From NCBI GenBank assembly GCA_016933255.1, contig JAFGBF010000006.1, forward strand, positions 1 through 64,000: a stretch of 64,000 nt of DNA, written 5' to 3'. The notes beneath the pieces are model-generated. The model was not told the origin of the DNA. It ran no database searches and saw nothing but the letters and a program-made list of their open reading frames with translations. The DNA is from Candidatus Krumholzibacteriota bacterium (GTDB lineage Bacteria; Krumholzibacteriota; Krumholzibacteriia; Krumholzibacteriales; Krumholzibacteriaceae). A program made the translations under genes and the position numbers. Shown piece after piece: positions 14,011 to 39,880 of this stretch; the stretch's first letter is position 1; each line of letters starts with the position of its first letter.

Positions 14011-15477
14011 ATGCGTGATTTAAAAAGAACTCTTCTCCTGCTCCTGGTCGCGGCTCTCATCCTCCCGGCTGGTCCGGTCGGGGCCCAGATCAGCGAGAGA
14101 AGACTGGTCGACGATGTCGACTCGGGCGCCGATGAAGTGAAGAAAGAAAAGGAGCCGAAGGATCTCTTGACTGGAGATCTGATGCGGCTGGAGCAGGCGA
14201 TCGATCCCGATGAATATATCCTGGGTCCCAACGACGGGATCATTATCAATCTTGTAGGCCCCCAGCAGAGGTCGTTCACGTTGTCTGTCCTTCCGGAAGG
14301 TGTCGTATTTATTCCCGGGATGGGCGCCCTGACAGCAGACGGCTTGACGCTTACGCAGTTTCGCGAGCTGCTGGCTGTCGAAGTCGAAAAGTATTTTCAC
14401 GATATCGAGGTCTACTGCTATCTGCTGCAGCCAAGGGTTTTCAGGGTATTTGTCACCGGTGAAGTCGGCATTCCCGGACCGGTGGATGTATCGGCTGTCG
14501 AGAGAGTGTCGGATGCGGTGGAAAAGGCTGGAAGTATCATTTCAAGCGGATCCAACAGACAGGTGCTGCTCGAGAGGGATGGAAAGAATATAAACGTCGA
14601 TATCCTCAGATTTGTCGTAAAGGGTGATTTTCGAAGTAATCCGTTCCTTTCAAATGGAGACAGGATCCACGTCCCGGTCGCAGGAGGCCATGTGCTGATA
14701 AGAGGGAGTGTGAAAAAATCAGCGGTCTACGAGATAATAGAGGGGGAGACTTTCTCCGATATTATAGATCTTGCAGGCGGGTTCACAAGTGAGGCGCTTT
14801 GCGATACGCTCCTGTTGAGCAGGGTCCTGGAAAACGGGACTGTATCCACGATCGCCGTTCCGGAATCCGATTTCACCAATATGATACTTCAGGACCGTGA
14901 TGAGATAAATGTCATGGACGCGATGACAGGTACGAGCCGGGTCTATGTCTTTGGAGCGACCGAGAAAACAGGGCACTATTATATTACCGATGGAGAGAGG
15001 CTGACCGAACTGGTGGGAAGGATAGGCAGATTTAATCCGGACGCCGATCTCGCGGCAGCGTCGATCGAACGGAGTGATGGGGAGATCATCAGGATCGATC
15101 TTAAAGACTATATCCCTCCCTCCTTGATCGGAGGCTTGACTCTCAAAGATGGCGATATGCTTCATATTCCCAGTATCAGCAGGATGGTCGCTGTCGGAGG
15201 AGAGGTGGTTCTCCCGGGAAGATTCGCATATGAAGGAGACTGGACGGTTGCTCAGTACGTCGGCCTGGCCGGCGGGCCGAAAAAAGAAGGAAGTATGGAC
15301 AGGATAGTCATCTATTCTCCTGACGGCCGTTCGAGGAAAGGGGACAGGAATATGCGTCCCAACAGAGGGGACGTGATAATAGTCAAAAGATCGAAGGGTA
15401 ATATCTTCGGAGGATTTTTCACGCTTTTTGTGAATGTGGGAACTGTAGTCATTACAATGATAGTCTTGACCAGGTGA
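14011..15477 (+). CDS. Polysaccharide export (OPX) protein with SLBB domains
   Basis: A secreted 488-residue protein with an N-terminal signal peptide (hydrophobic residues about 6-24, cleavage near VGAQ). A Poly_export domain follows (EYILGPNDGIIINLVG, about 68-150), then about four SLBB-type repeats (each starting like FVTGEVGIPGPVDV, LIRGSVKKSAVYEI, YVFGATEKTGHYYI, AVGGEVVLPGRFAY). The C-terminus is a hydrophobic segment (about 468-486) that could cross the outer membrane, as the Wza helix does. The likely role is export of capsule or exopolysaccharide across the outer membrane. No Wzc- or Wzx/Wzy-type gene is adjacent; the neighbours are gmhA and a UbiA prenyltransferase, and the large glycan cluster lies 30 kb away. 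Confidence 0.88.
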   Translation: MRDLKRTLLLLLVAALILPAGPVGAQISERRLVDDVDSGADEVKKEKEPKDLLTGDLMRLEQAIDPDEYILGPNDGIIINLVGPQQRSFTLSVLPEGVVFIPGMGALTADGLTLTQFRELLAVEVEKYFHDIEVYCYLLQPRVFRVFVTGEVGIPGPVDVSAVERVSDAVEKAGSIISSGSNRQVLLERDGKNINVDILRFVVKGDFRSNPFLSNGDRIHVPVAGGHVLIRGSVKKSAVYEIIEGETFSDIIDLAGGFTSEALCDTLLLSRVLENGTVSTIAVPESDFTNMILQDRDEINVMDAMTGTSRVYVFGATEKTGHYYITDGERLTELVGRIGRFNPDADLAAASIERSDGEIIRIDLKDYIPPSLIGGLTLKDGDMLHIPSISRMVAVGGEVVLPGRFAYEGDWTVAQYVGLAGGPKKEGSMDRIVIYSPDGRSRKGDRNMRPNRGDVIIVKRSKGNIFGGFFTLFVNVGTVVITMIVLTR

Positions 15478-23008: not shown

Positions 23009-24385
23009 ATCGGTATTCCGAAAAAAATATTCAGAGAATATGATATAAGAGGGCTTGTCGATATAGATCTTACCCTGGATGACGTCAGGTCTCTCGGATC
23101 TGCGATAGCGACCACGCTGAGGCGGGAAAATATCGGGACTGCTGTAGTCGGAAGGGATGTCCGCCTGAGCAGCAAGAGTTATTTTGAAGCGCTTTCCAAG
23201 GGGCTTATGAAAGGCGGGATCGATGTCGTCAATATCGGTGTCGTACCTACGCCTGTCCTGTACTTTGCCGCTGAGATATGGGGAATAAAGGGCGGCGTCA
23301 TGATCACTGCCAGCCACAATCCCGCTGAATTCAATGGTTTTAAGATTCTCAGAGGCGGCGGGTCTATCTACGGAAAAGATATTCTCGAGCTTCACGCGAT
23401 TATTACGGCAGGCGGGATGTATGTCGATGGAAAAGGCGCGATGACGGAGAAAGACGCCACCAGGGAGTATATTGACTACATATCTTCCAATATCAGACTT
23501 GAAAGGCCTGTGCGCTTTGCGGTCGATGGCGGTAACGGTACCGCCGGGATAGCAGCACCGGAGATATTTAAAAAACTCGGATGTGCCCCTGTAGAACTGT
23601 ATATGGAGCCTGACGGGACTTTCCCCAACCACCATCCCGACCCGACTGTCGAAAAGAATCTTGCCGGCATGAAGGCCGCCGTTTTAGAAGGCGGGCTGGA
23701 ACTCGGAATAGGATTCGATGGGGATACAGACCGGCTGGGAGTCCTTGACGACAAGGGCACGATCATATGGGGAGACAGTCTCCTTGCCATATTCAGCAGG
23801 GATATCCTGAGAGAAAACCCCGGCTCATCGATAATCTTCGAGGTGAAATGCTCACAGGGGCTTGAGGAGGAAATTCTCAAACACGGCGGACGGCCTATCA
23901 TGTGGAAGACGGGGCATTCCCTTATAAAAAAGAAGATGAAGGAAGAGGGAGCTCTTCTGGCTGGTGAGATGAGCGGACACCAGTTCTTTGCCGACAGATA
24001 TTTTGGATTTGACGATGCGATATATGCTGCCTGCAGGCTTCTAGAGATAGTATCAAGGAGCGATATTCCGCTTAGCGAGATCTATCGGAGCCTTCCGCAG
24101 TATGTCAATACTCCGGAGATACGCGTCCCATGCGATGATGAACGCAAATTCGAGATTGTCGGTGAGATAAAGGATTATTTCAGCAAAACAAGGGATGTAG
24201 TCGATATAGACGGTGCGAGAGTAAGATTTGATAAGGGATGGGGTCTGATCAGAGCTTCGAATACCCAGCCTGTCCTGGTTCTCAGATTCGAAGCTGCTGA
24301 TGCCGAAACCCTTGCCGGGATCTATCAGGAATTCATCGAAGTGCTTGGTAAATATGTTGATGTTTCGGGAATTATTGACGGATGA
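23009..24385 (+). CDS. Phosphomannomutase / phosphoglucomutase with non-standard start codon
   Basis: Interconverts hexose 6- and 1-phosphates, most likely mannose because manC follows. The protein has about 458 residues. The active-site serine loop is TASHNPAEFNGFK, the metal loop is DGDTDRLG, the sugar loop is GEMSGHQFF and the phosphate loop is RASNTQPVLVLRFEA. The conserved N-terminus IPKKIFREYDIRG is in frame upstream of the first ATG (23207), so the gene must begin near 23009. Between the in-frame stop at 22991 and this block there is no ATG, GTG, TTG or CTG. ATC 23009 sits five bases after GGAGGA; ATT 23015 is the other candidate. It follows rplI by 28 bases. Confidence 0.85.
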   Translation: MGIPKKIFREYDIRGLVDIDLTLDDVRSLGSAIATTLRRENIGTAVVGRDVRLSSKSYFEALSKGLMKGGIDVVNIGVVPTPVLYFAAEIWGIKGGVMITASHNPAEFNGFKILRGGGSIYGKDILELHAIITAGGMYVDGKGAMTEKDATREYIDYISSNIRLERPVRFAVDGGNGTAGIAAPEIFKKLGCAPVELYMEPDGTFPNHHPDPTVEKNLAGMKAAVLEGGLELGIGFDGDTDRLGVLDDKGTIIWGDSLLAIFSRDILRENPGSSIIFEVKCSQGLEEEILKHGGRPIMWKTGHSLIKKKMKEEGALLAGEMSGHQFFADRYFGFDDAIYAACRLLEIVSRSDIPLSEIYRSLPQYVNTPEIRVPCDDERKFEIVGEIKDYFSKTRDVVDIDGARVRFDKGWGLIRASNTQPVLVLRFEAADAETLAGIYQEFIEVLGKYVDVSGIIDG

Positions 24386-24387
24386 TG

Positions 24388-24396
24388 TGGTATAAT
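24388..24396 (+). promoter_or_regulatory. Possible extended -10 promoter for manC
   Basis: TGG followed by TATAAT forms the extended -10 motif TGnTATAAT, located three bases after the upstream gene and about 54 bases before manC. No good -35 box lies at the usual distance, which extended -10 promoters can tolerate. Confidence 0.45.
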
Positions 24397-24449
24397 ATCA
24401 GGCCGGTTGAGTCCTGTTTGTCAGTAAAGAAACTGTTGAGGGGTTTTTC

Positions 24450-25517
24450 GTGTATGCTGCTATCCTTGCAGGAGGAAGAGGTAAGCGTTTCTGGCCTTTA
24501 AGCAGGGAAGAAAGGCCGAAGCAGTTTATCGATATCACAGGAGAGGGAACGATGCTGTCGGTGACATACGGCAGGATCTCTTCCCTGGTAGATCCCGGCC
24601 ATATATTTATTCTGACGGTTGCCGATCAGGTCGATCTTGTCAGAAAAGAACTGCCGGATCTTCCCGAAAAGAATATCCTGTCAGAGCCTGTCGGAAGAAA
24701 TACCGCTCCGTCACTTGCCCTTGCTGCTATGGCGGCCGCTTCAGCCGGGGATGACGAACCTTTGCTTTGCTGTCCCTCGGATCATATCATAAGCGATACT
24801 GCCGAGTTTCATTCGGTCGTGAAAAGAGCATCAAAAATTGTTTCGGAGAAAGATCTCCTTTTGACTTTCGGTGTCAGGCCGGATAATCCTTCGACCGGGT
24901 ATGGATATATCGAATCGGGGGACCGCTGCGACGAGGGAATAAAGGATCTTTTTTCAGTAGACAGATTCCATGAAAAACCTGACCGCAGAGATGCTGTCCG
25001 ATATCTTGAGCATGGCGGATATTACTGGAACAGCGGCATATTCATGTGGAGGCCGTCCGTATTTCTCGCTGCATGGAAGCGTTTTATGCCTGACGGTGTG
25101 GAACCGCTATCCAGGATCGCCGACGCGTTCGGAAGTGGCCGATTCGATGATGTTCTCGGTTCCGAGTATATTTCGCTGCCTGCGGTATCGGTCGATTACG
25201 GAATACTCGAAAAGGCCGATAACGTAGCAGTTATACCAGTAGAATTCGGGTGGAATGATGTAGGATCATGGGATGCCCTTTACGGGATATTATCAGAGGA
25301 CAGTGATGGGAACAGGGGCGCAGGTTTAATTGAATCTATCGATTCGAAGGGAAATATCTTCTTCAACCCGGGAGGAACGACGGCTGCGATAGGGATAGAG
25401 GATCTTATCGTCGTCGTCGATCGCGGCACGGTGATGGTATGCAGAAAGGGCGACAGCCAGAGGGTAAAGGACCTGCTGGAGAAGATGGAACAGAAAAGAG
25501 TGAGTGAAACTTCGTAA
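24450..25517 (+). CDS. manC: Mannose-1-phosphate guanylyltransferase
   Basis: Joins GTP and mannose 1-phosphate to give GDP-mannose. The 355-residue short form has only the nucleotidyltransferase domain and its beta-helix-like end. It shows the signature LAGGRGKRFWPLSREERPKQF near residues 6-26, then EPVGRNTAPSLALAA, CCPSDHII and the sugar-binding FHEKPDRRDAV, and YYWNSGIFMWRPSVF. GTG 24450 is preceded by GAGGGG at six bases. With the mutase upstream it forms a complete GDP-mannose module, which could supply the Dpm1-type enzyme at 59057. Confidence 0.94.
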   Translation: MYAAILAGGRGKRFWPLSREERPKQFIDITGEGTMLSVTYGRISSLVDPGHIFILTVADQVDLVRKELPDLPEKNILSEPVGRNTAPSLALAAMAAASAGDDEPLLCCPSDHIISDTAEFHSVVKRASKIVSEKDLLLTFGVRPDNPSTGYGYIESGDRCDEGIKDLFSVDRFHEKPDRRDAVRYLEHGGYYWNSGIFMWRPSVFLAAWKRFMPDGVEPLSRIADAFGSGRFDDVLGSEYISLPAVSVDYGILEKADNVAVIPVEFGWNDVGSWDALYGILSEDSDGNRGAGLIESIDSKGNIFFNPGGTTAAIGIEDLIVVVDRGTVMVCRKGDSQRVKDLLEKMEQKRVSETS

Positions 25518-27236: not shown

Positions 27237-27296
27237 GAGAGGGTACCCGGCCTTCGCCGAAGGGCATAGACGGGTTCCCGCGTCAGGGATGTGAAA

Positions 27297-29027
27297 ATGA
27301 GGATCAAATCAATATTTGCAATTACCCTTGTCACTCTTTCATGTGCCGTTTCTCCTCCTGCTCTTCAGACCGATCAGTCGGCAGAGGCAGGGGATGAGGC
27401 CCTCCTGACCGGGATCAGGAGCGCTGTTTCCGAAGGAGACCATAAAGAGACGCGGAAACGAGGGATGCTTTATCTCGAAAGATACCCCGATGCTAAAGAA
27501 GTACCTGAAGTAAGACTGTATGTGGGAGAGGCTGAATTGAATCTCGGCTATCTGACCGATGCGAGGGCAGTCCTGGTGCCTCTTTCCGAACCCGGTGTCC
27601 CTTCTTCGAGCAGGAGGCCTGCTCTTAAGCTTCTGTTCCTGATCGACAGGGAGAAAGGAAGGTACGCGGATGCAGCGGCGCATCTTCTCGATGCTATCGG
27701 TGCAGAGATGGACGATTCGGAGTATCGTGAATCGAGGAATCTTCTTTCCGGGATATCGGGATTTCTCTCCAGTGAACAGATGGATAAGCTGAGGCTCGAT
27801 TACTCTTCCACTCCCGGCATTGATATTATTCTGGAAGGATCTCTTACTTACGCGCTTGCGGGAAGCGACACGGCCCGCGTAGCGGAACTCAGGCGGCATC
27901 TGGAGGCTGCTGATTCGCTAAGAGCCGTTCCGGACCGGGTTATAGCCAGGAGGACAGTGCCTTCCTTTGACAGAGCTCCCGGCGCGGCAAAGGGAGGGGA
28001 GATCCGTTCAATAGGTTTCATCTGTCCGCTGAGCGGAAGGTTTGCGCCTCTCGGAGAAGCGTTTCTTGCCGGTGCTTCGACTGCCCTTGCTGAGGCAAGG
28101 CTTCACGGAATCAGCAACGTCGAGCTTATAGTCGGAGACACCAAGGGAAGCGCTCTTGAAGCGCGTGAATTGACTGAAAGGATGATAAAAGAGGAAGGCG
28201 TATCGTCATTTGTAGGAGGAGTGCTGAGTGCTCCGACGATCGCGGCGGCGCAGGCTGCACAGTTCAATAAAGTCGTGCTGTATTCTCCTGTTGCTTCTGA
28301 ATCAGGAATAGACAAGATAGGGGATCATATCTTTCAGGCGCAGACGAGTTCTGATGCCGAGTTAATAGCTCTTGCGAGGGTCGCCTGCGTTATGATGGGA
28401 AAGAAAAGGATCGCATTTCTTTCAGCTGACAACCACAGCGCAAGGATATCTGAGGTTCTTTTTCGTGAATCTGTAGAACTCCTCGGAGGATCCATCGTTA
28501 TCTCCGATTTTTATGATCAGGGGAATACCGATTTTAAGATAAATATTGAAAGGATAAGAAACGCCGATCCGGAAGCGCTCTTTATCGCTTCCAACGCGGA
28601 AGATCTCGTACTGATCCTGCCGCAGCTTTCGTTTTATGAATTCGGAGTCCAGCTGCTTGGGACAAGCGCGTGGAATTCACCAAACCTGCTTCGCATGGCA
28701 GGGCGCGATATGGAAGGCGCAGTTTTTCCCGCAGTCGTCGATCTCAGAGATGATGAGGCGTTGTACAGATCCGCTGCCGCTTTGACTGACCAGCAGGTGA
28801 ATGAAGTCAATCGTTTCGTGATCGGCGGATATATCGGTGTCAGAAGAATGCTTGATATTATTGCAGGGAGCCGCGAGAGCGGCAATACGATCCGCGAGGA
28901 GATGACTCGGTCGCTTGAGAACACCAGGCATAAATATATTGAGCTGGTATCGGGAAAGGGTATCCCGTTCTATTCGGTCAAGAATGAAAAGTTCGTCGAC
29001 TACACTACTTTGACTCTGGGGCACTGA
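27297..29027 (+). CDS. LpoA-like periplasmic ligand-binding protein with helical N-terminal domain
   Basis: About 576 residues. A signal peptide (hydrophobic to about residue 18) ends near SC-A, possibly a weak lipobox. The N-terminal part (about 30-210) is helical and TPR-like, with repeats such as GMLYLERYPDAKEVPEVRLYVG. The C-terminal part (about 235-575) is a type I periplasmic binding fold (Peripla_BP_6): IGFICPLSGRFAPLGEAFLAGA, SFVGGVLSAPTIAAAQAAQ, ADPEALFIASNAEDLVLILPQL. This combination matches LpoA, the outer-membrane activator of a penicillin-binding protein, but also orphan amino-acid-binding proteins. ATG 27297 is preferred because CAGGGA lies about seven bases upstream; GTG 27291 is the alternative. 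Confidence 0.82.
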   Translation: MRIKSIFAITLVTLSCAVSPPALQTDQSAEAGDEALLTGIRSAVSEGDHKETRKRGMLYLERYPDAKEVPEVRLYVGEAELNLGYLTDARAVLVPLSEPGVPSSSRRPALKLLFLIDREKGRYADAAAHLLDAIGAEMDDSEYRESRNLLSGISGFLSSEQMDKLRLDYSSTPGIDIILEGSLTYALAGSDTARVAELRRHLEAADSLRAVPDRVIARRTVPSFDRAPGAAKGGEIRSIGFICPLSGRFAPLGEAFLAGASTALAEARLHGISNVELIVGDTKGSALEARELTERMIKEEGVSSFVGGVLSAPTIAAAQAAQFNKVVLYSPVASESGIDKIGDHIFQAQTSSDAELIALARVACVMMGKKRIAFLSADNHSARISEVLFRESVELLGGSIVISDFYDQGNTDFKINIERIRNADPEALFIASNAEDLVLILPQLSFYEFGVQLLGTSAWNSPNLLRMAGRDMEGAVFPAVVDLRDDEALYRSAAALTDQQVNEVNRFVIGGYIGVRRMLDIIAGSRESGNTIREEMTRSLENTRHKYIELVSGKGIPFYSVKNEKFVDYTTLTLGH

Positions 29028-29811: not shown

Positions 29812-32124
29812 TCACCCGGTGATATCGATGACAGACTCCTCATCAGAGGGACCCGAAATCTCGAAATACCGGTATACCGCCCTTTCATTTCCGGGTGGAG
29901 TGATCGACATCATATGTCTGCCTTCATCGAGAAAACGAAATATTGCCTTACCGTCACTGTCAGTGACCGAGCTGAATATCCCGTCTATTGATATGGAGGC
30001 GTTTCTGACAGGGGAGCCTCCTCTTACCAGGGTGATCCTGCGATCGAGGCAGATAATCGATTCCGGAAGAAAATATCGGACAAGTCCGGCTACGATTCCC
30101 TGGACCTGCATCTGCATCCAGACATCAGATGAAAAGAGTGATTCGCTTTTTTCTGTCATCGCCGCATGCAGCTCGCATGAAGGCGCTTTCGTCTGCTGTA
30201 GAAACAGGTTCGCCGATTCAGCTATCGCCGGATTTCTGAAGGGAGGGATCCTGCCTGTAAAGTCCATCATGCTTAGAGCGGCACGCCGGCCTTTACTGCT
30301 CCCCGGGTAGTGAAGGAATATCGGTTCGTCATCTTTCAGGGTACTTTCAGATCCGAAATGCAGCCTTAACGCAAGTTCTGCCCCGCTGATGTTTGTCCTG
30401 TAGATCCTTTCATCCAGTGAAAGGGTTTCTTCACCCTCGCGGGTAAGAGTCACATCGGCTCCGGCGGTGGTAAGAATGTCTCTTAACCTTTTTGCTATCT
30501 CAAGATTGACGGTAGCGCCTCTGAGACGCATCGGCCCTCTTCCTGAATCGTCGATGCCTCCGCCGGCAGGGTCGATAGATATTATTTTCCCCTGGAATGC
30601 GCCTCCAAGAATGGGATCAAGGACCAGCCGCCAGCCGTCCGAAGATCCGGCAGATGATGCGTTTTCCATGATAATCGGGCGGTAACCAGGCGCCGATACT
30701 ATAATACTGCCATCAGAGAGATCAGCCGGTACAGATAGAAAACCGTTCCTGCCCTGAGAATAAACAGTTCCGTCAGGACAGATGGCAAAGGGATCGTCGA
30801 CCTTTTTGCCGCTCAGACGGCAGGTGACCATAATGGAGAGGATATCATCGCTTTTTTCTTTTCTGAAATAAAGAGTATCGCCCAGGTCGGATGTTTCGAG
30901 AATAAACTCCGAATCGATCGCGTCTTCTGCTGCGGTGAAGGTGAAAGTCCCTTCTCTGGAGCTTCCCTCTATTATTTTTCCCGATGCTGGATGGATCACT
31001 CTTACCGGTTTGCCGTCAGCTACCTGTTCGCCCAGGGCATCGAGCAGTTTTACAGTCAGGGAAAGGCTGCGATCCGGTGAATTCTCGCAGGAGAGCGGAA
31101 GGATGTGTCTTACAGGCCTGTTTAAAAGCAGATCAAAGGGTTTGCTCAGAGCGCTGCCCCCTTTTACGCTTCTCGCTGAAGCTCGGAAACTGTAGCGCAT
31201 GTTTGGCGCATCATGCGGCATTGCGTGTGAAAGCCTTCCAGACAGAGGGTCCCAAACGGAAGGGATCTCATCGTCTCCTGCGATGATCCTCAGCGAAGAG
31301 GGATCGATCGGAATCCCGTGGTCCGGAAGGACTGTGAACGATACCGTTCCCGGTCCAGTGATCGTATCGGACGCAAGAGGGACTCTCTCAATGATCGGGA
31401 TACCTCTGGAAAAATATGAGACAAGTCCCAGAAAATACGATTCCGCTTCAAGCTTCTGTTTCGAGGATATCTTCAGTCTTTTTTCCATCTCAGGGTGGGA
31501 GATATAACTGGCCTCTGCCAGGACCGAGGCCCCCGCCATGGAATTTCTAAGGACATAATAGTTGCCTGGCCTTATCTTCGATTCTTCTATCCCGAGATTT
31601 CTCGCCAGATGTTTCTGTATATCAGTAGCGAGTTCAAGCGAAGCATCCGGGTCGGAGCCGCGGTAATATACCTCGATCATGTTTTTTCTGCGGTCGAGAG
31701 AGATATTGGAATTATGGTGCAGCGAGAGAAATACTTCTGGATCGAAGCTGTTGGATATCCTCATTCTTTCGGCAAGGTCGTCCTCCAGGGTGATCGAACT
31801 GTCGGGAAGGAAATCCCGGTCAGTACTGCGCGTCATCAAGACTTCAGCGCCCGCTTCATCGAGAAGCCCCCAGAGATACAGCGCGACCCCGAGGTTGACC
31901 TCGGCTTCAGTCAGGCTGTCTATCCCCGTTGCGCCTTCAAAATATCCTCCATGACCCGGGTCCAGAACGATCCTTCTTCCCTTGAGGATCTCGGTCCCGA
32001 CCCTCTCGGGATCCTCACTCAATTCGGAATAGAGCCTGTCCCAGGCTGTGTGCTTCGGAGCACATCCGGCGAGCAGGGACGCCAGGATGAGAGCAAGTAT
32101 TCCGTGGGCTACCGACCGGTTCAT
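29812..32124 (-). CDS. N-acetylmuramoyl-L-alanine amidase lipoprotein with a second, degenerate amidase domain
   Basis: A 770-residue periplasmic lipoprotein. The lipobox LLAGC is near residue 21. Amidase_3 domain 1 (about 50-260) has LDPGHGG (H58), TEAEVNL (E73), SLHHN and the catalytic-Glu region AEASYISHPEME, so it should cleave peptidoglycan amide bonds. The middle (about 270-500) has Ig-like and carboxypeptidase-regulatory-like modules. A second amidase-like domain (about 510-690) reads DPAGGG, VNLEIA and RLHFGSES: two of three zinc ligands are missing. The end (about 700-770) is another beta module. AGGAGG lies five bases before ATG 32124, which is preferred over an earlier in-frame ATG at 32181. 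Confidence 0.87.
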   Translation of the reverse strand: MNRSVAHGILALILASLLAGCAPKHTAWDRLYSELSEDPERVGTEILKGRRIVLDPGHGGYFEGATGIDSLTEAEVNLGVALYLWGLLDEAGAEVLMTRSTDRDFLPDSSITLEDDLAERMRISNSFDPEVFLSLHHNSNISLDRRKNMIEVYYRGSDPDASLELATDIQKHLARNLGIEESKIRPGNYYVLRNSMAGASVLAEASYISHPEMEKRLKISSKQKLEAESYFLGLVSYFSRGIPIIERVPLASDTITGPGTVSFTVLPDHGIPIDPSSLRIIAGDDEIPSVWDPLSGRLSHAMPHDAPNMRYSFRASARSVKGGSALSKPFDLLLNRPVRHILPLSCENSPDRSLSLTVKLLDALGEQVADGKPVRVIHPASGKIIEGSSREGTFTFTAAEDAIDSEFILETSDLGDTLYFRKEKSDDILSIMVTCRLSGKKVDDPFAICPDGTVYSQGRNGFLSVPADLSDGSIIVSAPGYRPIIMENASSAGSSDGWRLVLDPILGGAFQGKIISIDPAGGGIDDSGRGPMRLRGATVNLEIAKRLRDILTTAGADVTLTREGEETLSLDERIYRTNISGAELALRLHFGSESTLKDDEPIFLHYPGSSKGRRAALSMMDFTGRIPPFRNPAIAESANLFLQQTKAPSCELHAAMTEKSESLFSSDVWMQMQVQGIVAGLVRYFLPESIICLDRRITLVRGGSPVRNASISIDGIFSSVTDSDGKAIFRFLDEGRHMMSITPPGNERAVYRYFEISGPSDEESVIDITG

Positions 32125-32404
32125 CTGATCCTCCTTCCGGCGTCGTCTGTAAGGGGCTGATGTCTTTCTGCCGGTTTTCATAATGCCAAGATCTTTCGTT
32201 CATTACCCGGGGGAAATCGCAATTATTTATTGTTTAACAGATAGTTGCGATATCTTCAAGGGTGATTTATTCTCTTTTCCAATATCGGTCGTCCTGTATA
32301 TCGGCCGATCAGACCTCCAGTTTAACAATATATTGAGATATTAGTTGACGACTGCCACAATATATGGTAGAAAATGGCGAGTTTTATATTTGTACTACAC
32401 GAAG
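32125..32404. other. Divergent intergenic region with repeats and possible operator
   Basis: A 280-base region between the minus-strand amidase and plus-strand selA. Visible features are a perfect inverted repeat ATCGCAA (32216-32222) / TTGCGAT (32245-32251), a 10-base near-identical direct repeat ATATCGGYCG at 32282-32291 and 32298-32307, and a palindrome CAATATATTG at 32326-32335. No open reading frame stands out. Confidence 0.5.
32345..32373 (+). promoter_or_regulatory. Possible sigma70 promoter for selA
   Basis: TTGACG (32345-32350) and TAGAAA (32368-32373) are separated by 17 bases. The -35 box is strong and the -10 box is weak (four of six bases match). The spacer lies just before the selA start at 32405. 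Confidence 0.45.
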
Positions 32405-33829
32405 ATGGAGGAGTTTATCCAGACAGACTTGAAAAGGCTCCCTTCTGTTGAGAAGGTCCTCGGGGAGCGGTGCGTTTCGGATCTTGTCTCGAGGTATTCC
32501 AGAGGTGGGATCACTCGGATCATCAGGGATGAGATAGAGTCGTATCGCGAATATTTACTGCAGGATACAACCGGCAGTCAAAGCAGCGAGGATATCCTTC
32601 AAAAGATCGTCTCCGCGGTCACCGGGGAGATAGAGTCAGTTTCCTCTTTGCATCAGAGAAGGGTTGTCAATGCGTCAGGAGTCGTGCTGCACACGAACCT
32701 GGGAAGGGCTGTCCTGGGCGAAGAGGCCCGTTCGGCGCTCGATTACGTCTCGGCCGGATATATAGACCTCGAAATGAATATGGAGAACGGCCGAAGAACG
32801 GAGCGCGACTACAGGGCGGCCAGGCTGCTCAGCCTCCTTACCGGTTCGGAGAGCGCTCTCGTCGTGAATAATACCGCAGCGGCTGTTTTTCTCGCGGTCA
32901 GTACCTTCGCAGGTGAAGGAGCAGTAGCTGTTTCCCGCGGAGAACTGGTGGAGATCGGAGGCAGTTTCAGGCTTCCCGAGATCCTTTCCGCCGCCGCGGG
33001 GCGCGTTATAGAAGTAGGTACGACCAACAGGACAAACCTTCGGGATTATGAAAGGGCGATCGATGACGGAGCGACGCTCCTGTTGAAAGTGCATACAAGC
33101 AATTATCGGATCGTAGGATATACCGATGAAGTCGAACTTGGCAGACTCGTCGGTCTGGGGAGGGAAAAAAAGATCCCTGTGATGTATGATCAGGGAAACG
33201 GGATCCTTTTTCCTTTCGGTGAGGGCGGTCCGGGTGGTGAAGAAGATGTAGTCTCTTTGCTGCAAAGCGGGATCGATATCCTCTCTTTCAGCGGAGACAA
33301 GGCGTTGGGCGGGCCGCAGGCAGGAATACTAGTCGGGTCAGCTGATCTTATGGAAAAGCTCAGAAAGAACCACCTGAGCCGGGCTTTGCGGATTGACAAG
33401 CTCACGCTGGCCGCGCTCGAGAGAGTTCTGCTGCAGTACTGGGCCGGCAGGACCGATGGTATCCCGGCCGTAAACATGATAATGGAGAGTAAGGAATCGA
33501 TAGGCAAAAGAGCGCAAAAATTCTCTTCCGCCCTTTCGAAGAAGTTTCCTTCCTCAGCAGGGAAGATAACCGTTGTGGATGGTGAATCATCGATAGGAGG
33601 AGGAAGTTTTCCGATCGATCCGCTTCCGACCGTGCTTGTAAGGATTGAGCTGGTCAGGGGCGGTGCGGTCAAGCTTAACGATCTGCTGCGCAGGTCTGAT
33701 CCTGCCGTGCTTGCAAGGATCAAAGATGAATCGTTGTATTTCGATCTCAGGACTGTGGGCAGAGACGAAGAAAAAATGATCCGGGAGATCCTGGTAAGAG
33801 GAATAGAAGAAATCTCAGCGAGGGAGTAA
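32405..33829 (+). CDS. selA: L-seryl-tRNA(Sec) selenium transferase
   Basis: PLP enzyme that converts seryl-tRNA(Sec) to selenocysteyl-tRNA(Sec). It has 474 residues and aligns over its full length to SelA: N-terminal LPSVEKVL, NASGVVLHTNLGRA, LVVNNTAAAVFLAV, VSRGELVEIGGSFRLP, EVGTTNRTNLRDY, KVHTSNYRIVGYT and the PLP lysine block SFSGDKALGGPQAGILVG. ATG 32405 has only a weak GAAG upstream; the homologous N-terminus supports it over earlier starts. Neither selB, selD nor tRNA-Sec lies in the window, so selenoprotein synthesis must be checked genome-wide. Confidence 0.95.
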   Translation: MEEFIQTDLKRLPSVEKVLGERCVSDLVSRYSRGGITRIIRDEIESYREYLLQDTTGSQSSEDILQKIVSAVTGEIESVSSLHQRRVVNASGVVLHTNLGRAVLGEEARSALDYVSAGYIDLEMNMENGRRTERDYRAARLLSLLTGSESALVVNNTAAAVFLAVSTFAGEGAVAVSRGELVEIGGSFRLPEILSAAAGRVIEVGTTNRTNLRDYERAIDDGATLLLKVHTSNYRIVGYTDEVELGRLVGLGREKKIPVMYDQGNGILFPFGEGGPGGEEDVVSLLQSGIDILSFSGDKALGGPQAGILVGSADLMEKLRKNHLSRALRIDKLTLAALERVLLQYWAGRTDGIPAVNMIMESKESIGKRAQKFSSALSKKFPSSAGKITVVDGESSIGGGSFPIDPLPTVLVRIELVRGGAVKLNDLLRRSDPAVLARIKDESLYFDLRTVGRDEEKMIREILVRGIEEISARE

Positions 33830-33834
33830 TTACT

Positions 33835-35325
33835 ATGGGTGATGAAGAGTATGAAAAGGAGCTTCCTGGCTCCTGTGAAGGAGGAGGATATTCGATCTTC
33901 CTCGATGAAAAAGATATGTATGCCTTCATGGAGGAGGGAGATTTCTCCTCATCGCGCAATCTGGACCATTTTCTAAACGTCGAGACAAGTATCGAGAAAA
34001 GGCTGGTCGAAGGGAAAGGGTTTACGATACTCGCCATGTCGATGCCGGAAAGCAGGATCTCGAGAGATTTCTCCGTTCTTCAGATCGCTCATCTGCTGTC
34101 CAGGAACGGTAAAAAGGTGAATATAGTCGATTGCGATTTTTTTGACCCGGGGATGAACGGGCTGGTTCAGAATATCGAAGACCATGGATTCCTTGATCTG
34201 CTTCTTTATGGAAGCTCGCTCAAATCGGTCATGAAACCGACAGGGATAGATGGTGTCTACATCACCGGCGCTGGTTCTTTCCCCGTTTCAAGAACGATTC
34301 CGTTTGCTCTGAAGGAATTCGGCAAAGTGAATGAGTATCTCTCCAGTAACAGTGATGTGGTGATATACTGCTCCACCCTGTACACAGATGATAACAGCGT
34401 CAATCCCCTGCCGCAGTTTGTCGACAGTATTTTATTCTGCTGCAGTATCGATAAGATGGAAGAGGGTGAACTTCAAAAGATCCTGAAAGATATCGGCCCT
34501 GATCTCCCCCCGTCAGACCTGGTCTGTTTCTGTTCGGCAAAAGAATCGAGAGCGGCGATTTCCGGGGAAGAAACCAGGGATGATGATATCATGGATCTTG
34601 AACCTGAATCGGAGATACTCGATCATGATTCCGAAGATGATGATGTCAGGCCGGAATTCATCGAAAAAACAGAAGAGATAGATTCTGTCGGCAGAAAAGA
34701 AAAAAGATGGATAAGTTTTCCAAGGCTGGTGACGTTCGTAATCTCGGCTATGATAGTCATATTCATCGTATGGTGGGTCTCCATTGATAAATCGGTCCAG
34801 GAAAAGGAAGGTACGGACCGAATGTCGGAACTGATCCTGAAACAGCAGGATGCCAGAGATCTGGCTCAGAAAGATGATCTGCAGCAGGTTCAGGAGCAGA
34901 CAGGCGTAAGTCCGGCCGCCGGAGTAGAAGATCCGGGCTCTTCCGTGGAGGATGCGGCCAGACTGCCGTCAGGGGAGGCCGGCTCGCAGGCCGCCGATGA
35001 CCTCGATCTTCAGAAAGATCCTGGAGAGGGGTCTTCGGCCGTGAGGGATAGCGTGGAGCAGAAGACTCTGGCCCCGGAAGGCACTTGCTACTCGGTCCAT
35101 ATCGCTTCCTTTCTCGATATTCAGCGGGCAGGGACTGAAAGCGATTTCTTTGAGAAGAAAGATTATGACGTCAGGGTCGTGGAAGTCATGGTGAACGGGA
35201 AAAAATGGTACAGGGTGTTTATCGGTGAATATGAGACTCTGGAAGAAGCAGAGGCGATGAAAACAGAGCTTCTTTCCTTCAGAAGGATCAGGGAAGCAAG
35301 AGTATTGAATGTGAAATATGATTGA
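33835..35325 (+). CDS. SPOR-domain membrane protein with P-loop-less ParA/MinD-like domain
   Basis: A 496-residue protein with three parts. Residues about 60-240 resemble a ParA/MinD or tyrosine-kinase NTPase: LQIAHLLSRNGKKVNIVDCD followed by FFDPG matches the Walker A'-type strand. The position of the P-loop reads MSMPESRISRDFS, without GxxGxGKS/T, so nucleotide binding is unlikely. After an acidic linker comes one membrane helix (about 300-320), a Glu/Ala-rich linker, and a SPOR domain (about 420-495: CYSVHIASFLDIQRA, KWYRVFIGEYETLEEAE), which in other proteins binds denuded septal peptidoglycan. The topology is a cytoplasmic N-terminus and a periplasmic C-terminus. It lies between selA and smc; a role in division or chromosome positioning is an inference. 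Confidence 0.75.
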   Translation: MGDEEYEKELPGSCEGGGYSIFLDEKDMYAFMEEGDFSSSRNLDHFLNVETSIEKRLVEGKGFTILAMSMPESRISRDFSVLQIAHLLSRNGKKVNIVDCDFFDPGMNGLVQNIEDHGFLDLLLYGSSLKSVMKPTGIDGVYITGAGSFPVSRTIPFALKEFGKVNEYLSSNSDVVIYCSTLYTDDNSVNPLPQFVDSILFCCSIDKMEEGELQKILKDIGPDLPPSDLVCFCSAKESRAAISGEETRDDDIMDLEPESEILDHDSEDDDVRPEFIEKTEEIDSVGRKEKRWISFPRLVTFVISAMIVIFIVWWVSIDKSVQEKEGTDRMSELILKQQDARDLAQKDDLQQVQEQTGVSPAAGVEDPGSSVEDAARLPSGEAGSQAADDLDLQKDPGEGSSAVRDSVEQKTLAPEGTCYSVHIASFLDIQRAGTESDFFEKKDYDVRVVEVMVNGKKWYRVFIGEYETLEEAEAMKTELLSFRRIREARVLNVKYD

Positions 35326-35356
35326 GGGTCGTATGTAACACCACTCGCGGAGGTTG

Positions 35357-38300
35357 ATGAAGGTGAGTCTGAATAGACTTGAAATGTTTGGGTTTAAATC
35401 TTTTATGTCTCCAGTCTCTCTGGAGTTTAAAGGTGGGATCACAGCTATCCTTGGCCCGAACGGGTGCGGGAAGACCAATGTCGTCGATGCTGTACGATGG
35501 GTTCTCGGCGAGCAGAGCGCCCGTCAGCTTCGAAGCAGTAAGATGGAAAATGTCATCTTTAACGGGACTCAGCTGCAGAAGCCGACCGGGTTTGCAACGG
35601 TCACTATGACGATCAACAATGAAAAGGGGGTATTCCCTCTTGATTATTCAGAGATCACAATAAGCAGAAAGGTATATCGATCGGGAATAAGTGAATATTT
35701 CATCAACAAGACTCCCTGCAGATTAAAAGATGTCAGGGAGCTTTTTGCAGATACGGGAACAGGCAGCCATTCATACGCCGTGATAGAGCAGGAGATGGTC
35801 GAATACGTTCTTAACGACACGCATGGAGAGCGGCGGCTCATGTTTGAAGAAGCCTCGGGCATAGTAAAGTACAGGATGCGCAGGGAAGAGGCAAAAAGAA
35901 AACTTAAGCTTACCGACGCGGATCTGGTGCGTCTCGACGATATCCTCGATGAACTTGGCAAGAATGTGCGTTCACTCCGTTACCAGGTCGGGAAGACAAA
36001 ACGGTACAAAAAGATAAGTGAGAGGATCAGGGATTGGGGAATAATACTGCTGAAAAAGAACCTTTCGGGATATCTCGCCGAAAAGAGGGAAGCCGAATCG
36101 GAACTTGAATCGGCGAACGGGATGTCTGCTGAGGATAGCGATTCGCTGAGCAGATTCGAAAAGAAGGTCGAAGAGGAAAAATTCCTTCTCATTGAATATG
36201 AAAAAAGAAATTCTGAACTCCAGAACAGCCGATATGAAATAAGAAGAAAGATCCAGGGATCCGAAGAAAAGGTCATCCAGTATACCGAGCGAAAAGGAGA
36301 GGCCGAAAGGAAGATAGAAAGAGCTCTAAGAGAGATCGAAGAAGCGAAGTCGAGGATGGAAAGGATCGTTGAGAGGATCTCGGGAGTAAACACTGAACTG
36401 AAAGAGACATCAGAAAATGCCAGGGAGGAAGAAGACGCCATACGAGGCCTTGGAGGGAGGTTTGAGGAAATATCCGTAAGGATCGAAAGGGTCAAGAATG
36501 AACTTATCGACCTGAAACAGACGCAGCTTGATTTTCTGCAGGATCAGGTAAGGGTCCAGAGCAGTCAGGAACATTATGATGCTATCCTCAAAGAGCTTGA
36601 CTTGAGATCGAATGAGATGCGTGAAAGGATTACGGGACTCGAAGCGCAGATATCAGATCTCGCCTCTTCGATGGAGGAAAAGGATCTGCAGTTCCGCGAT
36701 TGCAGAACTACTCTGGCCGGTCTGGAAAAAGAACGCAGCAGTGCGTATGAAACTATGCAGGCCGTCGACAGGAGCCTGCCGGAGAGAGAATCAAAACTCT
36801 CAGAAAAGAAGACAGAACTCGCCAAATTGATCAGCAGACATGAGTTGTATTCGAGGATGAAGGAAGATTTCGAGGGATTCCCCGGCGGGGCAAGGTATCT
36901 TCTGAAAAAAGGGGATACGCGGGTCAAGGGCCCTCTGGCAGAGATGCTCAAAGTCGAAGAAAAATATAAAGGGGCTATCGAAGCGGTCCTTGGAGGGCTG
37001 AGCGACGGAGTGGTAGTCGATGATCTTTCAGGAGCCATGGAGTTGATATCCGAGATCTCGGACAGCAGGCTCGGAAGCGTAAGGTTTTTTGTTGAAAAGA
37101 CCGAGAAAGGCGAAAATCCGTATTCTCCGGAGGATCATCCTGGATCGATCGGGAGACTCAGCTCTTTTGTAGATGTTCCTGGATCGAGAAGAGGCATGAT
37201 CGAAGATCTTCTCGGCAAAACGATCCTTTTCGAGGATCCGTGGAAAGCTCTGGAGTTTGTAAATTCCGACAAGGGGCGTCTCTTCGATGCTGTCACTCTC
37301 TCCGGGGTCTATTTCTGCAGGGGAAAAGGTATCTATTATTCAGGCAATTCTACGGAAGAGATCTCGCTTCTTGGCCGCTCCGGAGAAATAGAAAAACTGC
37401 AGAGCAGCATGGAAGATCTTAAAGAAGTTATCACTGGTGAGGAATCTGAATGTGATAGAGAGAGGAAAGAAAAAGAAAGACTGAGAACTCTGCTTATCGA
37501 GATAGACGCGAAGATCGGCAGCACGAGGATCGATCTTGCCGGAAACCAGGAAGTGTTTCAGAAGGTGGAGCGCGATTTTATCATGAGCAAGGAGAAGTGC
37601 TCTCTCCTGATGAAGTCGCTCGATGAGATCGAGAGCTCAAGAGTCGAGACTATTGCAAAACTTGAGGAGTTGAAGTTGTCCATAGCGATGCGTCAGGATT
37701 CAGGCGAGGTCTCCGATACGGTGAAGCTCGAATCTGAGCTTGCGATGCTGACAGGGCGGAGAAACGAACTGGAAGCAGTTCTTACAGAAAGAAAGGTAAG
37801 GCTGGCATCGCTGCAGGGAAATATGGACAAGCACAAGGAAGAGATCCGAGGACTCAGCGAGATGGAAAAACAGTTCAGCAGTATCATGCAGCAGAGAAGC
37901 GAGGAGATCAGTTCCTCGAAAAAGGAAATAGCCATACTGGAAAAAGAGGTGGAAGAGGAACGCAGGATCGTGACCGGTTTCCTTGAAGGGGAAAGCGCAT
38001 TCCAGAAAGATATAGATGAGCTTCGCGGGATAGTCGATGAAAAACGCGAGGGAATAACCCGGATGGAACTCGATTTGAAATCCCGTCAGGAGGAAAGAGA
38101 GAAGATATTTTCGAGGATCAACGAAGTAAGGATCAAATTGTCTTCAATAGATACGCGGATGAAAGATCTTGTAGAAAGGGGCATCGAGATATACAAGGAA
38201 GACCTTGGATCGTATCTCGAGGGGAAGGAGACTGTCCTTACTGAAGAAGAAAAGAAGATCACGCAGGAAATGCTCGAGAAGCAGAAAAGAAACCTGGAAA

Positions 38301-38968
38301 GTATAGGGCCCGTAAACCTCGCGGCGATCGAAGAATATGAAGAAAAGAAAAACAGGATGGACTTTCTTCTTTCGCAGAAGGAAGACCTCGACAAGGCGAA
38401 AGAAGAGCTGCAGGAGGCTATAAGCCGGATCAACAAAAGGGCCAGAAAACTCTTTGTCGAGACTTTCGATGTCGTTAAAAAATATTTCAGCGAGATCTTC
38501 ACCGTTCTCTTTGAAGGCGGCGAAGCTTCCCTTACGCTCGAAGAAGGTTCTGATCCCCTGGAAGGAGATATCGTGATCTCTGCCAGGCCCAAGGGTAAGA
38601 GGTTTCAGGATATTTCACTCCTGTCCGGGGGCGAGCGAGCGCTGACAGCGATGGCGCTGCTCTTTGCCTTGTACAAGGCAAAGCCTTCACCTTTCTGCAT
38701 ATTCGATGAGGTAGATGCTCCTCTCGACGATGCGAATATTCAGAGATTCGTCAGGATGCTTACGAAATTCTCGGAAGACACGCAATTCATTATTATCACT
38801 CATAATAAACGTACGATGGAAGCCGCTGACAGACTGTTCGGAGTGACGATGGAACAAAAAGGGATTTCAAAGATCGTCTCTGTCGATCTGACCGAAGTCG
38901 AATCTGTGCTTCAGAACAGGGCAGCTCCCGAGGGAGCGATGGCCGAAGCACATGTCTCTTCCAACTAG
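35357..38968 (+). CDS. smc: Chromosome segregation protein SMC
   Basis: A condensin ATPase that compacts and separates chromosomes. It has 1203 residues: Walker A GPNGCGKTN (about 33-41), a long coiled coil, a hinge domain (about 515-640, with GPLAEMLKVEEKYKGAIEAV), a second coiled coil, the ABC signature LSGGERALTAMALL and Walker B FCIFDEVDAPLDDANIQ near the C-terminus. Start choice: ATG 35357 is only three bases after CGGAGG; GTG 35363, nine bases after, would remove two residues. ftsY follows 15 bases downstream, a common pairing. No scpA or scpB gene lies in the window. Confidence 0.97.
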   Translation: MKVSLNRLEMFGFKSFMSPVSLEFKGGITAILGPNGCGKTNVVDAVRWVLGEQSARQLRSSKMENVIFNGTQLQKPTGFATVTMTINNEKGVFPLDYSEITISRKVYRSGISEYFINKTPCRLKDVRELFADTGTGSHSYAVIEQEMVEYVLNDTHGERRLMFEEASGIVKYRMRREEAKRKLKLTDADLVRLDDILDELGKNVRSLRYQVGKTKRYKKISERIRDWGIILLKKNLSGYLAEKREAESELESANGMSAEDSDSLSRFEKKVEEEKFLLIEYEKRNSELQNSRYEIRRKIQGSEEKVIQYTERKGEAERKIERALREIEEAKSRMERIVERISGVNTELKETSENAREEEDAIRGLGGRFEEISVRIERVKNELIDLKQTQLDFLQDQVRVQSSQEHYDAILKELDLRSNEMRERITGLEAQISDLASSMEEKDLQFRDCRTTLAGLEKERSSAYETMQAVDRSLPERESKLSEKKTELAKLISRHELYSRMKEDFEGFPGGARYLLKKGDTRVKGPLAEMLKVEEKYKGAIEAVLGGLSDGVVVDDLSGAMELISEISDSRLGSVRFFVEKTEKGENPYSPEDHPGSIGRLSSFVDVPGSRRGMIEDLLGKTILFEDPWKALEFVNSDKGRLFDAVTLSGVYFCRGKGIYYSGNSTEEISLLGRSGEIEKLQSSMEDLKEVITGEESECDRERKEKERLRTLLIEIDAKIGSTRIDLAGNQEVFQKVERDFIMSKEKCSLLMKSLDEIESSRVETIAKLEELKLSIAMRQDSGEVSDTVKLESELAMLTGRRNELEAVLTERKVRLASLQGNMDKHKEEIRGLSEMEKQFSSIMQQRSEEISSSKKEIAILEKEVEEERRIVTGFLEGESAFQKDIDELRGIVDEKREGITRMELDLKSRQEEREKIFSRINEVRIKLSSIDTRMKDLVERGIEIYKEDLGSYLEGKETVLTEEEKKITQEMLEKQKRNLESIGPVNLAAIEEYEEKKNRMDFLLSQKEDLDKAKEELQEAISRINKRARKLFVETFDVVKKYFSEIFTVLFEGGEASLTLEEGSDPLEGDIVISARPKGKRFQDISLLSGGERALTAMALLFALYKAKPSPFCIFDEVDAPLDDANIQRFVRMLTKFSEDTQFIIITHNKRTMEAADRLFGVTMEQKGISKIVSVDLTEVESVLQNRAAPEGAMAEAHVSSN

Positions 38969-38983
38969 GAAAGAAATCAGCCG

Positions 38984-39880
38984 ATGAACAGGATCGTCCG
39001 AGGACTTGGCAAGACGAAGGCACGCCTTATTGCGCCCCTGCGCAATATTTTTTCATCCGGAAAACTGAGTCAGGATACAATAGAAGAACTTGAGGATCTG
39101 CTTTTTTCGGCTGATCTGGGAGTAGAAGCGACCGATAGGATAATCGAAAAAGTAAGAGAAAAACAGGGGGCGCCGCATGAGGCATCCGTGGATTTTCTCG
39201 CGATCGTAAAAGAGGAATTGATCTCTGTGATCGAGGAGGTCCCCCAATATCTGGTGCCGGACGGATCCCCAAGGGTGATAGTCGTGATCGGAGTCAATGG
39301 AGTAGGAAAGACCTCTACTATAGGCAAGCTGACGAGCCGTTTTAAAGCTGAAGGGAAGAAGGTCCTGCTTGCTGCCTGTGATACGTTCAGAGCCGCGGCT
39401 ATAGAGCAGCTCGAGCTATGGGCGCAGAAGACGAAGACCCCTGTCGTCAGGCAGAAGATGGGATCTGATCCGGCGGCGGTCGCCTTTGATGCCGTGTACT
39501 CCGCGACCGCAAGGGGGATAGATACTGTCATCATCGATACGGCCGGAAGGCTCCACACAAAGTCAAATCTGATGGAAGAACTCGGAAAGATATTTCGGGT
39601 ACTCAAGGTAAAGATGCCTGATGCGTCGGTCGAAGGATGGCTTGTCCTTGATGCCAACGCCGGTCAGAACAGCATTCGACAGGCGGAAGTGTTTGTCGAT
39701 GCGCTTCCGGTCACAGGACTGGTGCTCACTAAACTCGACAGTACGGCCAAGGGGGGAGCGATTATCCCGATACAGAAAAACCTTCGGATCCCTGTGTTGT
39801 ATGTTGGCGTCGGCGAAGGTGAGGATGATCTCGAGCCTTTCGACAGCCACGCGTTCGTCAGCGCTTTACTGAGCGATTAG
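38984..39880 (+). CDS. ftsY: Signal recognition particle receptor FtsY
   Basis: SRP receptor GTPase that docks the SRP-ribosome complex at the membrane; its RNA partner is encoded at 276-541. The 298-residue NG-domain form lacks the long acidic N-terminal A domain of E. coli FtsY. G1 is GVNGVGKTST, then DTFRAAAIEQL, DTAGRLHTKSNLMEEL and TKLDSTAKGGA. The ending GEGEDDLEPFDSHAFVSALL is typical. It is 15 bases from smc. Confidence 0.97.
   Translation: MNRIVRGLGKTKARLIAPLRNIFSSGKLSQDTIEELEDLLFSADLGVEATDRIIEKVREKQGAPHEASVDFLAIVKEELISVIEEVPQYLVPDGSPRVIVVIGVNGVGKTSTIGKLTSRFKAEGKKVLLAACDTFRAAAIEQLELWAQKTKTPVVRQKMGSDPAAVAFDAVYSATARGIDTVIIDTAGRLHTKSNLMEELGKIFRVLKVKMPDASVEGWLVLDANAGQNSIRQAEVFVDALPVTGLVLTKLDSTAKGGAIIPIQKNLRIPVLYVGVGEGEDDLEPFDSHAFVSALLSD

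Follow-up and report, generated by a model that had tools for sequence, protein, structure and literature searches.

The open reading frame at 33835-35325, on the forward strand of the 64-kb window (the whole stretch of DNA that was analysed, which is contig C11 of a 2.58 Mb Candidatus Krumholzibacteriota genome that is 90.6% complete), encodes a protein of 496 amino acids in which a BY-kinase-like cytosolic domain devoid of catalytic residues is followed by a single membrane helix and then a SPOR domain. The fold, the phylum-wide loss of the catalytic residues, the single helix, the SPOR fold and the gene order are all established by computation, and the product is a real, vertically conserved protein. 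We assign a probability of roughly 55% to the reading that it is a bitopic inner-membrane scaffold, with a catalysis-less BY-kinase fold in the cytosol and a periplasmic SPOR domain on denuded (septal) peptidoglycan. The combination appears to be undescribed, each half being known separately, the first from EcpK and HfsB and the second from proteins of the DamX/FtsN type. In the library searched, no paper treats a BY-kinase together with a SPOR domain, and one genome survey mentions a SPOR domain and Wzc, once each.

Fold and active-site region of the cytosolic domain

The sequence-only reading had taken the N-terminal part for a ParA/MinD-like domain. An AlphaFold2 model of this domain (approximately residues 16-235; 33880-34539, + strand), built from 23 homologues (pLDDT 78.7, pTM 0.79), was compared with known structures, MinD, ParA and BY-kinases among them. 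BY-kinases matched it with Z scores of 20-21.7 over 209-224 residues (Wzc, Z 21.7 over 219 residues with an rmsd of 3.1; Etk, 20.9; CapB, 20-20.7; BceF, 20.4), whereas ParA (13.7), MinD (13.6) and Soj (13.2) each matched over about 170 residues. The BY-kinase match covers residues 12-60, ahead of the first conserved strand, while the ParA/MinD matches omit them. Sequence comparisons gave BceF (E 2.3e-4) and Wzc (E 1.8e-3) as the best phmmer matches in the PDB, and the NCBIfam BY-kinase models (TIGR01007, TIGR03018 and Wzc) match 18-20 of 24 homologues, with a best E of about 1e-10. Within its own genome, the family profile is closest to a BY-kinase-like gene (L110). A profile built from the alignment performed less well against the PDB (CapAB, E 0.41) than the single sequence had, and Pfam returned weak CbiA/AAA_31 matches to this domain and nothing more.

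From the structure and sequence matches to BY-kinases, it therefore follows that the kinship with MinD and ParA is correct but is a more distant superfamily relation. MinD, ParA and Soj belong to the same wider P-loop NTPase group, and so that part of the original claim stands; they are structurally less similar to the domain than BY-kinases are, and their deviant Walker A motif, KGGxxGKT, was found neither in this protein nor in 40 orthologues. We thus dropped the pseudo-MinD reading (Z at most 13.7 vs 20-21.7), and both the model and the sequence matches point to a BY-pseudokinase with Wzc and CapB as its nearest relatives in fold. The most strongly conserved motifs of the whole protein, VDCDF, GFLDLLLYG and G.GSFPV, lie in this domain. 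In the region of the oligomerisation motif EX2RX2R, the Arg of Wzc RTSL aligns with Glu, as judged by sequence alignment only.

The absence of a P-loop, which had also been proposed from the letters, is borne out. The Walker-A loop has no GKS or GKT and reads SMPESRISRDFS, then KVNIVDCDFFDPG; alignment with BceF and Wzc and the tally of 40 orthologues define the degenerate motif as SMPESRISRDF (residues 69-79; 34039-34071, +), with RISRDF standing where BceF has GIGKSF and Arg77 at the lysine position. That position holds Arg in 37 of the 40 orthologues, Ser in 2, Ala in 1 and Lys in none, and in the model helix alpha1 begins at residue 74, so that a helix replaces the phosphate-binding loop. 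The Walker B motif is likewise degenerate (VVIYCST; 34357-34377, +), with Cys179 instead of Asp, and this position is Cys in 27 orthologues and Asp in none of the 40. The Walker A'-like strand NIVDCD (residues 95-101; 34117-34137, +) is retained, Asp99 being present in 40/40 and Asp101 in 38/40 orthologues, and the Arg of DxDxR is Phe in this protein. A Tyr cluster ahead of the membrane helix was not found either: there is no Tyr between the domain and the helix here and at most one in 37 of the 40 orthologues.

A search for homologues with a normal P-loop at the same locus found none, the P-loop being absent also from further orthologues in families f4 and f5. Recent or local loss in a degenerating gene was rejected on the same tally, as no orthologue among the 40 has Lys at the position. 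As a control, GKT or GKS is intact in the eight further genes that PF13614 (ParA-type) picks out in this genome. One of them encodes a CpsD-like BY-kinase (L112; G000:C7:20094-20432) with a GKS P-loop and a YYYDYGYYGY tail, which, judging by these motifs, is probably an active kinase.

In the features predicted by the model and the alignments (a BY-kinase fold, no catalytic Walker motifs and no Tyr tail), the domain corresponds to the BY-pseudokinases EcpK of Myxococcus xanthus and HfsB of Caulobacter, for which action by protein binding or scaffolding has been proposed (PMC12004946). EcpK and HfsB, however, are stand-alone proteins with a PCP-2 partner in polysaccharide synthesis, whereas here the domain is N-terminal to a membrane helix and a SPOR domain and is encoded in an smc-ftsY block.

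Membrane helix, linker and SPOR domain

Hydropathy identifies only one hydrophobic segment in the protein, at approximately residues 297-318 (34723-34788, +; KD 2.56), and a basic segment ahead of it predicts an N-in orientation. It is followed by a low-complexity periplasmic linker, delimited by alignment (34789-35082, +), in which a juxtamembrane segment with the pattern M-S/T-EL..KQ..D.R (residues 329-345, ~34820-34870) recurs in many f1 family members, unlike the remaining linker sequence. This topology, as read from hydropathy and flanking charge, agrees with that of a bitopic FtsN-type SPOR protein, and the expectation that one helix would join the N-terminal part to a SPOR domain proved correct.

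By both model and profile, the SPOR domain (35083-35313, +) is genuine. Its Pfam score is 32.6 against a cut-off of 21 bits, and its model (pLDDT 87.6) matches the SPOR domains of RlpA (Z 10.6, 1.9 A), CwlC (10.1) and DedD (9.1). Ser425, Trp458 and Arg460 are invariant in 34/34 orthologues and are, by motif matching, the counterparts of FtsN S254, W283 and R285, which are required for septal localisation (PMC6895207). By the same matching, all 34 orthologues, drawn from across the phylum, have His (residue 422; 35098-35100) in place of the glycan-contact Gln (FtsN Q251, RlpA Q270). FtsN and DamX carry Gln there, as do both remaining SPOR proteins encoded in this genome. This Gln is highly conserved in SPOR domains, although not absolutely so; its replacement by His in every member suggests that glycan binding could be altered.

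Of those two, one is a lipoprotein and the other a periplasmic TPR protein, so that no inner-membrane (bitopic) SPOR protein besides the one described here was found in the genome; at 90.6% completeness another may be missing. Five further genomes of the family likewise have three SPOR proteins, of like sizes and with N-terminal or internal hydrophobic segments, as assessed by size and hydropathy. The division cluster (dcw) is of the standard kind, with ftsI, ftsW, ftsQ, ftsA and ftsZ. In f5 genomes, we also observed proteins in which a P-loop AAA domain (ExeA-like, GTGKT) precedes a membrane helix and a SPOR domain (L093:1640-3229 and L096:1272-3092); these occur alongside the pseudokinase type.

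Distribution and gene order in the phylum

The gene has an ATG start 5 bases past selA (32345-33829, +; Pfam and synteny) and ends about 28 bases short of smc (35354-38968, +; PF02463, PF06470 and synteny), which is followed by ftsY (38984-39880, +; PF00448 and PF02881), as the proposed proximity of smc and ftsY had implied. Divergent to selA lies a gene assigned by Pfam to an N-acetylmuramoyl-L-alanine amidase (29812-32181, -), whose product carries two Amidase_3 stretches on one chain and whose position is largely kept. A Peripla_BP_6 periplasmic-binding-protein-like protein at 27291-29027 belongs to the block in most families and might be an LpoA-like PBP activator. Elsewhere in the window, a Poly_export/SLBB gene and sugar-nucleotide genes are found at 14011-15477 and 23207-25517.

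A chance or broken reading frame can be dismissed, as full-length homologues (69% to ~20% identity) occur at the same locus phylum-wide. Of 39 relatives, 35 yielded a homologue, and our profile A1 was matched in 76 of 80 genomes of Candidatus Krumholzibacteriota, many of the weaker matches being to the SPOR part only. In families f3-f8, f4 included, orthologues of divergent sequence were also located through their place between the two flanking genes, selA and smc. Homologues with organism names come mainly from Candidatus Krumholzibacteriota/-iia. A scan of contigs gave 24 loci, and those that were checked fall in this phylum despite their labels (Latescibacterota, Chitinivibrionia); the scan relied on conserved peptides, which distant relatives outside the phylum could escape.

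The order selA, pseudokinase/SPOR gene, smc is kept in 34/35 testable genomes of the phylum. A script counted selA directly upstream in 32 of the 33 loci with room for it, the exception (L090) being an artefact of stop-to-stop ORF ends. Directly downstream, smc is present in 28 of 29 loci, to which six further f4 and f5 genomes add six, giving 34/35. The sole exception for smc is L053 of genome G076, in which the homologue's frame (L053:7824-10142) carries on after the SPOR domain to include a PhoH domain (PF02562, E 3.8e-84) and has no smc beside it, through either gene fusion or an assembly join. A divergent Amidase_3 gene accompanies the locus in 25 of 30 testable cases. Thus, the smc neighbourhood is conserved in related genomes; nevertheless, gene order by itself is no proof of a functional link to smc because selA and ribD share the conserved block, and the linkage may be frozen gene order.

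Possible roles at the septum

N-acetylmuramoyl-L-alanine amidases produce denuded glycan, which is the ligand of SPOR domains. We infer that the SPOR domain would bring the protein to amidase-denuded septal glycan and that the protein would collect at the division septum. The cytosolic domain may then be a phosphorylation-independent docking scaffold, which is the best view of a pseudokinase because phosphorylation is not expected of one, and this step is less certain than septal placement. Less certain too is that the scaffold would recruit a divisome or chromosome-segregation partner, for which the FtsA/FtsZ side, ParB and SMC are candidates, and that the protein may take the bitopic SPOR role that FtsN, DedD and DamX have in E. 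coli. Those three proteins share its design (bitopic, N-in, periplasmic linker, C-terminal SPOR domain) and, by published descriptions, are set apart in that no BY-kinase-like domain has been described in them. A BY-kinase is known at the division site: CpsD of Streptococcus pneumoniae binds ParB there and affects chromosome segregation (PMC4574921). The likeness lies in the fold and in the location, which for our protein is putative; CpsD has autokinase activity and is not fused to CpsC, its partner in the membrane, and no SPOR domain has been described in it. A more specific proposal is that in this phylum a tyrosine-autokinase domain was disarmed and now forms the cytosolic part of the principal bitopic SPOR protein of the septum, which would physically couple chromosome organisation (SMC/ParB) to septal peptidoglycan and replace FtsN; we consider this possible but doubtful. 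The original idea of a pseudo-ATPase adaptor that tethers a partner to septal peptidoglycan is plausible as regards the adaptor, with a BY-pseudokinase in place of the pseudo-ATPase, and its chromosome- or division-linked partner is an unproven candidate.

The conservation that outlasted catalysis permits another reading, in which the N-terminal domain binds a nucleotide or other phosphorylated ligand through Arg77 (37/40), Asp99 (40/40) and Asp101 (38/40) and works as a ligand-gated switch without hydrolysis; 21 of 24 members are matched by NF047398, a curated family that has Arg (KGGVGR) in place of the Walker-A lysine. This seems unlikely, given that the P-loop glycines are lost as well, that a helix starting at residue 74 leaves no phosphate loop in the model, that the Walker-B Asp is absent and that part of family f5 lacks Arg77.

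The precedent of EcpK and HfsB suggests instead that the protein could serve a polysaccharide co-polymerase system as its peptidoglycan-anchored pseudokinase subunit, with a role in surface polysaccharide assembly and not in division. The characterised BY-pseudokinases that we found serve polysaccharide pathways (PMC12004946), and the window does contain Poly_export/SLBB and sugar-nucleotide genes, but the protein is without a Wzz/PCP domain, the genes conserved beside its own (selA, smc, ftsY and the amidase) include no PCP-2 or polysaccharide genes, and separate P-loop BY-kinase-like genes lie on another contig, all of which makes such a role distinctly improbable. Finally, the protein could simply activate the synthesis of septal peptidoglycan in the manner of FtsN, DedD and DamX, with a cytosolic domain that does no more than aid localisation, the smc linkage being meaningless. 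Its standing as the sole bitopic SPOR protein found in the genome agrees with this, as does DamX, a bitopic SPOR protein whose cytosolic domain is likewise large and which stimulates PBP1B (PMC7642682). We nevertheless regard it as very unlikely, since the strongest conserved motifs are in the cytosolic domain, which suggests a binding role of that domain's own.

The characterisation of BY-pseudokinases to date concerns polysaccharide export. If the preferred reading of a septal scaffold is true, a BY-kinase fold would have been recruited, phylum-wide and by vertical inheritance, to serve cell division as a structural adaptor, and the protein would offer a specific handle on how divisomes without an obvious FtsN couple the cytosol, the chromosome and the septal wall.
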